Source: a virus
Length of the DNA: 26,453 bases
Reading direction: 5' to 3' (one strand)
IMG/VR virus record: IMGVR_UViG_3300046010_003325
Location: 1-26,453 of that record
Shown here: piece after piece, positions 1,768 to 6,559 of the stretch
Position numbering within the stretch: position 1 is the first letter of the stretch
How the letters are laid out: each line of letters starts with the position of its first letter
Translations under genes and position numbers: made by a program
Notes under the pieces: model-generated
Databases searched by the model: none
Seen by the model: only the letters and a program-made list of their open reading frames with translations
What the model was told of the DNA's origin: nothing

Positions 1768-2064
1768 CTAACCAACACCAAGTTCCTTTAATGCCATATC
1801 GCACTCCCAAACAATCCTCGCGTTGATGTGTGCAACATGATCGTCTGGCGACAGATCTCCGAAGTCAGCTTCAGGGTCGTAATGCCAAGACGCCAGTAGC
1901 TTGATGCCTTGCAGCACAGCAATCTGCCGATAGCGCATCTCCATCCGTTGCTGCTCCAGAATCTTGATATGGGCGATGACAACAGCCAACTTTGCTTTGA
2001 CCGCGACAGACTCGCTTTCGTGGGCGAGGTCTTCGAGTAATTCGATCGGTGTTTTCATTGTCAT
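1768..2064 (-). CDS. Hypothetical helical protein (98 aa)
   Basis: Starts at the ATG at 2064, overlapping the stop of the upstream gene by 4 bases (ATGA), which indicates translational coupling; the ATG at 2058 is an alternative. The sequence PIELLEDLAHESES through QQRMEMRYRQIAV is predicted as long helices, possibly a coiled coil, followed by an acidic segment. No catalytic motif, Cys cluster or membrane segment is visible. Function unknown. Confidence 0.65.
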   Translation of the reverse strand: MTMKTPIELLEDLAHESESVAVKAKLAVVIAHIKILEQQRMEMRYRQIAVLQGIKLLASWHYDPEADFGDLSPDDHVAHINARIVWECDMALKELGVG

Positions 2065-2273
2065 TTCTTTTCATCCTCCCAACCTTTCTCTAGTTCCCTT
2101 CGCATCACCTCTGCCCAGATCTCAACGACATCAGGAGGCAACGACTCTCTGCCGAACATCGACCGACATACTCGATAGGCATGCTTAACCGCTTCGGCTT
2201 CGCTACGCTGACCGTCAACGATCATTATCGCTACTCGTTCGCGGAAGTATTCTAGGATGTCGGAGGGATGCAT
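2061..2273 (-). CDS. Small hypothetical protein (70 aa)
   Basis: ATG at 2273, with the last GGCGAGG of the upstream pentanucleotide array about 10 bases before it, so the array may supply the Shine-Dalgarno sequence. The 70-aa product (MHPSDILEYFRERVAIM...) is helical with a charged C-terminus (ELEKGWEDEKK) and has no recognised domain. It is coupled by a 4-base overlap to the next gene. Confidence 0.6.
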   Translation of the reverse strand: MHPSDILEYFRERVAIMIVDGQRSEAEAVKHAYRVCRSMFGRESLPPDVVEIWAEVMRRELEKGWEDEKK

Positions 2274-2302
2274 TGTAGTTAAACCTCGCCTGTCATATCA
2301 AA

Positions 2303-2572
2303 CCGAACCACGCCATGCCCTGCCGAGCCGCAACTCTCCTCGCCCCGCCTTGCCTGCCTTGCCGAGCCCCAACGTAACGCACCCAGCCTTGACGAACCAG
2401 GCCTGCCGTACCATGCCTCACGCCGCCGGAACCTGCCTAGCCTAAACCAGCCTGCCTTGCCCTTCCTAGCCTCGCCACGCCCCGCCTTGCCCTTCCGCGC
2501 CTTGCCTGCCAAACCATACCGTGCCGAACCACGCCTTGCCATTCCAAGCCTTGACCGACCCTGCCTGCCACA
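2303..2572 (-). repeat. Degenerate pentanucleotide array 1 (GGNNN on the minus strand)
   Basis: About 270 bases built almost entirely of five-base steps, CCNNN on the plus strand and GGNNN on the minus strand. GG is strongly kept, the other three positions vary, and some units are four or six bases long. The period of five rules out a conserved protein, although an 87-aa frame stays open. Regularly spaced GG with short loops is the formal pattern of a two-tetrad G-quadruplex in the minus-strand DNA or RNA. This fills the whole gap between the genes at 2061-2273 and 2574-3086. Confidence 0.8.
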
Positions 2573-2573
2573 A

Positions 2574-3086
2574 TTAATTCACCGCTTCCTTGTCAGCGAT
2601 CTGCTCGATCGTCTGATCGATTGCAACCATCAAGTGATGCAACTCCTGCAGCGCAGCAAATCGCTTTCGCCAAGCCATCAACGTTCGCACCGCTTCGGCA
2701 ATCAATCGAGCGTGATTATCTGGATCCGACGCCGCTTCCTCGGCAGTCTTGTAGACCGTCCTCGATTCAGCGTCACCGGTCTTCTTCTTGTATTGAATCT
2801 CGAACGCCCGACGCTCCATCTTGGGAGCTTCCTTGTAGACGATCTCAATCGATCGGATTAACACACCGGCTTCCATGAGCCGATACTTGCGAGCCGCTTC
2901 CGTATCCTCCCAAGTAAACCATGCATGCATGACTGACTCAGGATTCTTTGCCGACTCAACAACGTCATCCGGTGTCAAATTGCCACCGTTTGCTTCTTTT
3001 ACTTTAAGCAACTCCTGGTAGGCAACCTCTGCGGGTGCATCGAGTTGCTTGCCGTGCTGCTTCCAACGAACCGATTCAACCTTCAT
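2574..3086 (-). CDS. Conserved phage protein of unknown function (170 aa)
   Basis: The ATG at 3086 (MKVESVRWKQHG) has GGAGG at 8 bases; a TTG at 3101 overlaps that site and was rejected. The pattern of an N-terminal RW segment, then NGGNLTPDDVVESAKNP, then WFTWEDTEAARKYRLMEAGVLIRSI, matches from memory a common phage family with the sense 'LTPE.VVE.A', 'F.WDD..AA..yR...A..LIRS'. It usually lies near recombination genes and its function is not established. The C-terminal third is helical. It stands alone between two GGNNN arrays, an unusual setting in this otherwise compact genome. Confidence 0.75.
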   Translation of the reverse strand: MKVESVRWKQHGKQLDAPAEVAYQELLKVKEANGGNLTPDDVVESAKNPESVMHAWFTWEDTEAARKYRLMEAGVLIRSIEIVYKEAPKMERRAFEIQYKKKTGDAESRTVYKTAEEAASDPDNHARLIAEAVRTLMAWRKRFAALQELHHLMVAIDQTIEQIADKEAVN

Positions 3087-3120
3087 CAAACTATCCTCCA
3101 AATTGAAATGAAATTAAAAA

Positions 3121-3287
3121 CCTTGCCTTGCCTCGCCGCGCCTCGCCTCGCCGCGCCTCGCCTCGCCGGGCCATGCCTCGCCTCGCCCTACCCTGCCTGC
3201 CAGATCTCGCCAGACCGCGCCGCACCTCGCCGCAACGCGCCCAGCCGCGCCATGCCCAGCCTAGCCTGCCACACCAAACCGAGCGGA
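3121..3287 (-). repeat. Degenerate pentanucleotide array 2 (GGNNN on the minus strand)
   Basis: About 167 bases of five-base steps. The part nearest the gene at 3086 is the most regular, with minus-strand units GGCGA, GGCGC, GGCAA repeated in near-tandem. Units farther away are more diverged. The array ends at TTTTT on the minus strand, before the ribosome-binding site. It fills the gap between the stop at 3288 and the gene starting at 3086. Confidence 0.8.
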
Positions 3288-3893
3288 CTACTCGACCTCG
3301 ACAGGTCGCGTCGTGTCTACGCTGAACCTGCCAAACTCGCCTCCTTTCTCTGGTCGCCACTCGCAAATACCAACACCAAATCCAGCTCGGTTGACCAAAG
3401 TCAAAACGTCGTCCGGTTGAAGCAATTCGGCATCAACCTCGAACTCGACATCGATCGACCAGTTATCCCACTGCGGACGATAACGCATGTCGGTCTGATT
3501 CATCCCGACTCGCACCATGTCCTCTCGCATCGTCGGCTCTTCGGCCATCACCAACGGGATGATCTTGTTCGGATCGTCTGTCCGAAGAAACAACGACTTG
3601 CGAACCAACGTCTTTTCAATACCGAGATCCTTGTGCGCCGCATTGATGATCGCCGCTTTCAATGCCAAGCCTGGGACTCCATACGAGCCGTCAGCTGTTC
3701 GATAGGTCGCCGCTTCCATCTCTGCCTTTGCGTCTCGAATCTCACGATTCTTGGTCTTTTTGCCAGCGTGCTTTTCACGCATTTGCAATTTCGCCTTCTC
3801 GCTCCATGCGTGCGTAATCAAGGGCGATGTGCCCTTGATCGTAAACCGCACCAAAGCGCGAGTAATCGGTTTCAACATTGCTTTCTCAGCCAT
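3288..3893 (-). CDS. Conserved phage protein, GTSPLI/GVGEWRPE-type family (201 aa)
   Basis: ATG at 3893 with AAGGA about 8 bases upstream. The sequence IKGTSPLITHAWSEKAKLQM, then YGVPGLALKAAIINAA, then MREDMVRVGMNQTDMRYRPQW, and finally GFGVGICEWRPEKGGEFGRF fits a widespread phage family known to me only by its conserved pattern (a SPLI.H.fS.KA start and a G.GEWRPE..G..GRF end). Its role is not established. It typically lies next to the family of the gene at 2574-3086 and near phage recombination genes, as here. An interleaved inverted-repeat structure lies in its 177-base leader. Confidence 0.75.
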   Translation of the reverse strand: MAEKAMLKPITRALVRFTIKGTSPLITHAWSEKAKLQMREKHAGKKTKNREIRDAKAEMEAATYRTADGSYGVPGLALKAAIINAAHKDLGIEKTLVRKSLFLRTDDPNKIIPLVMAEEPTMREDMVRVGMNQTDMRYRPQWDNWSIDVEFEVDAELLQPDDVLTLVNRAGFGVGICEWRPEKGGEFGRFSVDTTRPVEVE

Positions 3894-3966
3894 AACAAAC
3901 AGTCCTTCTCATTGTGCAGCTCTTTGAAACGGTTGCTGCGTCTCCGTTGCCTTTCGGCGTTAATCT

Positions 3967-4051
3967 AAAAACCCTCGCCGATGTTTTGACCGCCAGATGC
4001 ACAGAATGCAAAGACACATCGGCGAGGGAGTGAATCGTTTCTGGCGGTCAA
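3967..4051 (-). terminator. Two interleaved perfect inverted repeats followed by T5 (attenuator-like)
   Basis: On the plus strand the arms are A 3972-3984, B 3986-3997, A' 4016-4028 and B' 4040-4051. A pairs perfectly with A' over 13 bases and B with B' over 12, in crossing order A-B-A'-B'. In the minus-strand transcript the A'/A stem is GC-rich and is followed at once by TTTTT (3971-3967), which looks like an intrinsic terminator with a large loop. B'/B forms earlier and competes with or knots it. It lies between the stop at 4071 and the start at 3893. Nothing else is seen in 3894-4070 except a weak AACGG/CCGTT hairpin. Confidence 0.75.
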
Positions 4052-4070
4052 CCATTACGCACATTTGTAG

Positions 4071-4406
4071 CTACACTTGAGGATCTGTCAACCGATAGAC
4101 CGTCGCCTTTTTTCCGCTGACTCGGCACACCCTAGCATCGATCTCCTGCACCAGACCGAGACGAACGAGATCCGTTGCTCGCCGTCGAATCGAATCGTGT
4201 AGTGCAATCCTGTCCGCGACCGCCGATGCAACCTCTCTTGCTGTTCCGGTTCCTCCAATCAGGTTCAGGCCTTGAAGGAACTGCTTCGCCCTCGCAGTCA
4301 GTCTAGGCTCGATCTCCGATGCCGATTGCGTGCTAGTCGCCGGATCGTTTGATCGACTTCTAGCCCAGTCGAACAGTTCTCCGAACTCGTCACTCTCCAG
4401 ATTCAT
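4071..4406 (-). CDS. Winged-helix DNA-binding phage protein (111 aa)
   Basis: The ATG at 4406 has GGAGG at 7 bases; a GTG at 4424 was rejected. The first third has the segment RSNDPATSTQSASEIEPRLT, a pattern typical of phage winged-helix proteins ('R..DP.TS..A'). After it come helices (GTAREVASAVADRIALHDSIRRRATDLVRLGLVQEI) and a basic wing (RVSGKKATVYRL). It probably binds DNA, perhaps as a regulator or replication accessory. It overlaps the RuvC-like gene by 17 bases. The attenuator-like structure directly follows its stop. Confidence 0.65.
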   Translation of the reverse strand: MNLESDEFGELFDWARSRSNDPATSTQSASEIEPRLTARAKQFLQGLNLIGGTGTAREVASAVADRIALHDSIRRRATDLVRLGLVQEIDARVCRVSGKKATVYRLTDPQV

Positions 4407-4863
4407 CTTCGATCCTCCATTCACGTTCCGTCCTCTCCGAATCCATTGCCGTTACCGCAACCGCTAGTGCAGGCCAACGATGACCCGAAACTCCCCAGAG
4501 TGGGCCTGGATTCTTCTTCGTTCCTGTTGGACCAAACCTGTCTAGCAACGCCTGACGAATGTTCGCATCCTTCGCCCTAGTCGATTGGCAGATATGTAGC
4601 TTGACATCGATCCTAGGTATAAGCCGCACCGGTCTTGCTTGATAAATACGTCCGATCTGAAAGACCGTCTGAAACACCTCCTTGCCGACAGCCATACCGA
4701 ACGAAGTAATCCACTCGCAAGCGACCGGAGCAGTTGCCTGCCGCAGAAACTCGACGAGTTCTTCGGTCGTCATGTCTTCGGCAGCAAAGACCTCCGTTCC
4801 AGTCCAGCCGACAACTCCGTGCAGCTTCGGCCCTGGATCGATGCCGATGTATGCCTTAGTCAT
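4390..4863 (-). CDS. RuvC-like Holliday junction resolvase / RNase H-fold nuclease (157 aa)
   Basis: Begins YIGIDPGPKLHGVVGW, the first RuvC strand with Asp9. Glu50 lies in VACEWITS, and the C-terminal part has KDANIRQALLDRFG (Asp99) and GVSGHRWPALAVAVTAMD, matching phage RuvC-like proteins with a 'KK.PGPL.G...H.W.ALAVA' end. The usual late acidic residue appears to be His128, as in some RuvC relatives. The protein likely cuts branched DNA made during phage recombination and replication. The ATG at 4863 overlaps the upstream stop by 8 bases. The longer frame to 5064 is a shadow of the upstream gene. Confidence 0.75.
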   Translation of the reverse strand: MTKAYIGIDPGPKLHGVVGWTGTEVFAAEDMTTEELVEFLRQATAPVACEWITSFGMAVGKEVFQTVFQIGRIYQARPVRLIPRIDVKLHICQSTRAKDANIRQALLDRFGPTGTKKNPGPLWGVSGHRWPALAVAVTAMDSERTEREWRIEDESGE

Positions 4864-6524: not shown

Positions 6525-6559
6525 GGAAGATGAGATAACATCTCTTTATCTCATCTTCC
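6525..6559 (-). promoter_or_regulatory. Perfect 14-bp hairpin in the initiator leader
   Basis: GGAAGATGAGATAA (6525-6538) and TTATCTCATCTTCC (6546-6559) pair perfectly around a 7-base loop. The stem lies 30 bases before the initiator start codon and has no T-tract after it, so it is more likely a translational control element, processing site or operator than a terminator. Confidence 0.6.

Follow-up and report, generated by a model that had tools for sequence, protein, structure and literature searches.

Crossing stems with a terminal U-tract beside a phage VIPR cassette: a possible noncanonical terminator

The feature described here is an 85-base element on the minus strand of a virus genome (positions 3967-4051 of the window, by which is meant the whole stretch analysed, a 26.4-kb virus record of 26,453 nucleotides), whose RNA is able to form two interlocked stems and then ends in a run of U residues. 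With odds slightly better than even (a probability of about 0.5), the element is a Rho-independent terminator that closes a replication/recombination operon, carries an added, probably pseudoknotting stem and insulates or throttles the VIPR cassette. VIPR is an RNA-guided system published in 2026 in which a protein, Vipr, is combined with vrRNAs of alternating GGY/NN motifs; these bind DNA, skipping 1 nt, and repress rival elements (PMC13142463).

On the minus strand the element reads B' UUGACCGCCAGA, 11 nt, A' CCCUCGCCGAUGU, 18 nt, B UCUGGCGGUCAA, 1 nt, A ACAUCGGCGAGGG and UUUUU. Arms B' (4040-4051) and B (3986-3997) are the 5' and 3' strands of a 12-bp stem with 42 nt between them, and arms A' (4016-4028) and A (3972-3984) are those of a 13-bp stem, the terminator stem, with 31 nt between them; both stems are 100% paired, and the four arms do not overlap and have no base in common. 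The 11-nt linker between B' and A' occupies 4029-4039, the 18-nt linker from A' to B (3998-4015) could itself fold into a 5-bp hairpin (UGCAU-UCU-GUGCA), and the U-tract, directly 3' of arm A at 3967-3971, is a tail of the terminator type. The initial annotation had described 13-bp and 12-bp perfect inverted repeats that are interleaved, and the arms are exactly as it claimed; its linkers of 1 and 11 nt were also correct, the 18-nt linker having been left unmentioned. No other copies of the arms were found in the window above chance. The whole element is spanned by a 34-codon open reading frame (MCVMVDRQKR...FLD*, about 4066-3960, minus strand) that ends at the TAA opening the vipr leader; it is possible as a gene, but would arise by chance about 20% of the time.

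Could such an arrangement simply reflect base composition? Among the perfect inverted repeats of the window (loop up to 60) the stems rank second and joint third by length, and they form its sole crossing pair with a summed length of at least 18 bp, the sum being 25. When the window was shuffled 150 times under a first-order Markov model, crossing pairs summing to 14, 15, 16, 17, 18 and 19 bp turned up 341, 153, 62, 22, 9 and 4 times, respectively, and none reached 20; by extrapolation a pair summing to 25 would be expected about 1e-4 times per window. The next-best crossing pair in 1.26 Mb of other, mostly viral, sequence sums to 22, with none at 25. The element is real and a composition-driven chance product is ruled out, in agreement with the earlier view that two crossing perfect stems are improbable by chance. 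Elsewhere in the window, at 6525-6559 between two replication genes, the arms of a perfect 14-bp inverted repeat (GGAAGATGAGATAA/TTATCTCATCTTCC) enclose a loop of 7 nt, and a 27-bp unit with a 12-bp inverted repeat (GAATTCCACATA/TATGTGGAATTC) is present almost twice over at 226-277.

Nearly all genes of the window lie on the minus strand, and their order toward the element is capsid/protease, tail genes, DUF932, exonuclease, an O-like replication protein, a RuvC-like resolvase and, as the last gene before the element, phrog_1123 (4071-4424, minus strand; 117 aa, with a weak winged-helix match). The element had been said to divide a replication operon from the gene at 3288-3893, a position that is confirmed, the operon being one of replication and recombination. 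The identity of the gene at 3288-3893 (minus strand) is new relative to that description: it is vipr of the VIPR system, encoding a RAMP-fold guide-RNA-binding protein that matches the SUSP1 Vipr of PDB 36pp with an E of 2.6e-7, and its predicted structure (mean pLDDT 82) hits Csm3/Cas7-type CRISPR RAMP chains at a TM of about 0.45, a likeness at the level of fold only. A scan of genome contigs yielded one distant Vipr relative only. The GGYNN guide (vrRNA) arrays, which accompany 74 of the 88 loci with a Vipr relative and none of 57 control loci, were detected in the window downstream of vipr only, at 3118-3266 (array 1) and 2300-2565 (array 2), both on the minus strand. Array 1 shows GGCAGGCNNGGC register shifts, and with such repeated shifts the arrays of the window may belong to the type that PMC13142463 calls staggered and overlapping. 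The intervening gene (2574-3101), also conserved in L002 and L003, is a candidate for the VIPR accessory gene.

The element itself lies outside the VIPR cassette, whose leader starts at 3962, just past the U-tract. In the closest relative, L002 (98% Vipr identity), homology begins at window position 3962, an unrelated gene precedes the leader and the element is absent. It is likewise absent from L003 and L004, where a homologue of phrog_1123 is followed by the leader 7 nt from its stop codon, and from L098, which has the same upstream gene and leader, then a different gene, with no vipr and no guide arrays in the 7 kb examined. Since these four loci lack it, the block of about 100 bp is something that this phage has gained, on the upstream side. 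Behind phrog_1123 lies a cargo hotspot: VIPR occupies it in the window, L170 and L171, other genes do so in L167, L168, L169 and L172, and in L165 and L166 it holds a Cas12f/TnpB-like nuclease. The relatives show that whole RNA-guided systems are swapped behind the same replication operon. In L165/L166 the nuclease gene (about 2022-3299) matches PDB 7wju with an E of 7e-16 and is preceded, at about 1848-1990, by a multibranched folded RNA (z = -6.3) that is possibly its guide scaffold. That locus resembles the element in its site and in the pairing of a structured RNA with a terminator, whereas its RNA has no evident sequence similarity to the element and is multibranched, not crossing.

The case for termination begins with a G+C-rich, perfect 13-bp stem, followed immediately by T5, on the strand that carries the phage genes. 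In 2.57 Mb of strand sequence only 25 perfect stems of at least 10 bp have a T-rich tail; the element is one of them, and its stem ranks among the longest. The main comparative support comes from L165/L166, where the operon independently ends in a terminator, a conventional one (11 bp, TTTTATT tail) that follows phrog_1123. The earlier proposal that the A'/A stem and U5 make a terminator thus holds up in so far as the element looks like an intrinsic terminator and has a conventional counterpart at the equivalent site. The loop of intrinsic terminators is typically about 3-10 nt, though this is no strict requirement. What the element shares with them is a G+C-rich stem leading directly into a U-tract at the end of an operon; it differs in a loop that, at 31 nt, is unusually long and falls outside the typical range, although partly filled by the 5-bp inner hairpin, in a U-tract of only five residues, and in having a second stem, of 12 bp, with the 3' arm placed within the terminator loop and the 5' arm beyond it. 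Given this loop, and the failure of a standard terminator scan of the window to pick the element up, our claim is for a terminator-like but noncanonical mode of working. L003 and L004 are counter-evidence, for they share the gene order yet manage without a terminator, which makes one nonessential here. Moreover, the stretch from the element to vipr yielded no promoter, so that a strong terminator would come at a cost to vipr expression.

How, then, might the two stems work together? As the RNA emerges B'/B would be the first to form, after which the terminator proper, the 13-bp A'/A stem with U5, would form alongside it to give a bent, H-type-like pseudoknot that leaves a compact and probably stable 3' end. 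The terminator would then insulate the VIPR cassette, with its conserved leader, vipr and guide arrays, or throttle it through partial read-through. Termination itself, the pseudoknot and the tuning of vipr by read-through are each what we infer, and a role of the element in VIPR control is possible but unproven. If the element does work in this way, it offers a clean natural test of a terminator whose loop is tied into a second long helix with which it shares no bases.

Folding calculations bear on several of these steps. When only nested pairs are allowed the A'/A stem takes up 99.6% of the ensemble (P = 0.996, z = -2.7). When the RNA is folded in transcript order, B'/B is the stem of lowest energy once the RNA has reached about 74 nt and stays so until almost all of A has been added, which supports in part the initial view that the other stem forms first. 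With no bases shared the stems are able to coexist, and as a partial or bent pseudoknot this is plausible: when helix energies are roughly added up and a pseudoknot penalty of 9.6 kcal/mol is applied, the crossed structure comes to about -46 kcal/mol, and the most favourable nested fold of that segment to -30 kcal/mol. The estimate ignores topology and the threading of a 3' end held by RNA polymerase, and is no true pseudoknot prediction. In terms of geometry, the linkers of 11, 18 and 1 nt permit both helices only when they are bent; 25 coaxially stacked pairs are too long for a comfortable span of 11 nt, which suffices if the helices meet at under roughly 150 degrees (a limit taken from our own reading of the table). 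The strain that had been foreseen for the two full helices is therefore modest, and a partial or bent pseudoknot is possible by linker geometry and rough energy.

Alternative folds, or attenuation, had also been suggested. Classical attenuation requires that bases be shared between a mutually exclusive terminator and antiterminator, and as the stems here share none, with the nested ensemble so dominated by one of them, it is unsupported. The idea of an RNA switch fares no better, for the analysis turned up neither a ligand or sensor nor a leader peptide or conserved homologue, and nothing yet indicates a switch function. The H-type pseudoknot regulators (the preQ1, SAM-II and ZTP riboswitches and similar) likewise place crossing helices just upstream of or within a terminator, but in the element the stems are far longer (12 and 13 bp), the middle linker is 18 nt and the third 1 nt, the helices that would have to compete share no base, and there is no aptamer match. 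An HDV-like ribozyme was rejected: the crossing order is similar, but P4 and the catalytic-C junction are missing and P1 is too long. Searches for homologues gave no match to the element in Rfam at the gathering score or at E up to 10 (the sole hit, a weak nuoG with an E of 6.9, falls over the leader side), nothing useful by blastn against phages and plasmids, and only chance hits inside unrelated sequence for the exact patterns CATCGGCGAGGGTTTTT and TTGACCGCCAGAAACG in IMG/VR.

Two rival explanations turn on a promoter-like site, TTGACA-16-TACAAA, at 4091-4064 on the minus strand, a consensus match only, with a predicted start near 4057, some 6 nt before B'. It is one of just four sigma-70-like sites with at least 10 of 12 matches in the window, and the standard scanner passed over it, as its -10 box (TACAAA) has a final base other than T. 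(A similar site, TTGATA-18-TACAAT, lies at 2301-2272 on the minus strand, at the end of guide array 2.) The site could drive a stand-alone, pseudoknotted RNA of about 90 nt, from about 4057 to 3967, with its own terminator, as a moron-like insertion that would act in trans or on a protein. We regard this as unlikely: the site is placed so that B' would become the 5' end, the block of about 100 bp is missing at the same junction in L003, L004 and L098, and L165/L166 hold another strongly structured RNA with a terminator in the slot, but the promoter-like site has a weak -10 box and a -35 box that runs into coding sequence, the RNA has no known target and the searches returned no relative. Alternatively, the same site could make the element an attenuator or riboswitch of vipr, in which folding or a bound factor decides whether transcription stops at 3967 or runs on into the vipr leader. 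Here the geometry fits, in that a promoter-like site is followed by a structured leader with a terminator and then the gene, B'/B precedes A'/A in folding and no promoter intervenes between terminator and vipr; against it, neither stem excludes the other by pairing, aptamer match and leader-peptide evidence are both wanting, and the element is not conserved along with vipr, all of which renders it distinctly unlikely. A related long shot is a dedicated phage RNA device for deploying the pre-CRISPR, RNA-guided VIPR cassette, a pseudoknotted, promoter-proximal terminator whose action would be delayed or gated by topology and not by base sharing, such that reading of vipr would depend on a phage or host factor holding the first stem. 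No description of expression control at VIPR loci was found, and such a gate would, to our knowledge, be the first element of transcriptional control reported from one.

The remaining alternatives dispense with an RNA function. A protein-bound site or recombination junction in the DNA at the cassette boundary would suit the mosaic break at 3962, where homology to L002 starts, and the nature of the slot as a cargo hotspot; we hold it to be very unlikely, as RNA accounts better than a dimer operator for arm spacings of 31 and 42 bp with T5 on one side only, the arms recur in the window no more than by chance and the same boundary in relatives is without the repeats. Equally improbable is a recent insertion that presently has no function, for which the single occurrence of the element and its absence from all relatives found would speak, since drift would quickly spoil two perfect stems totalling 25 bp.

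Set against these, the reading as a noncanonical terminator also has to be kept apart from the RNAs of VIPR itself. The element is not a vrRNA, having neither the 9-16 YNNGG repeats expected of one nor any period-5 GG repeats within 3967-4051, and it is not a vrRNA target in so far as 235 guides, from the window and all relatives, gave no match above noise when 0-3 skip bases were allowed. A tail pseudoknot has been reported for the vrRNAs of the SUSP1 clade (PMC13142463), and the element resembles it as a pseudoknot upstream of vipr; however, it has another geometry, is preceded by no GGYNN array and lies outside the cassette, and was rejected as a vrRNA tail. The tail-like pseudoknot of the window is a smaller, separate one at 3916-3948.

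This smaller structure belongs to the conserved vipr leader (3914-3962, minus strand), which combines a GCC-GAAA-GGC hairpin (3949-3958) with an H-type pseudoknot, AACGG-AGAC-GCAGC-AA-CCGUU-UCAAAGA-GCUGC, where stem 1 pairs AACGG (3944-3948) with CCGUU (3928-3932) and stem 2 pairs GCAGC (3935-3939) with GCUGC (3916-3920). Stem 2 is altered on both sides in L002, to GCGGC/GCCGC. The pseudoknot stands immediately upstream of vipr in many relatives, and the H-type layout was found before vipr (in L098, before the replacement gene) at 18 of 40 loci, among them L002-L006, L012, L098, L115, L118, L129, L142 and L153, against 5 expected from mononucleotide shuffles. Such shuffles control only weakly for chance, which may account for a few of the 18 that are rich in A+T or in GU. 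A GGYNN array directly precedes the small pseudoknot in L006, L012, L115 and L153, where it abuts vipr and looks like the vrRNA tail; in the window and L002-L004 no array comes before it. It is possible that the leader pseudoknot is a vrRNA tail that doubles as the vipr leader. In SUSP1 (L076) a hairpin-like repeated motif (GTCTT...AGGGT in the stem; 2045-2500 and 3525-4060) precedes each guide array and vipr.
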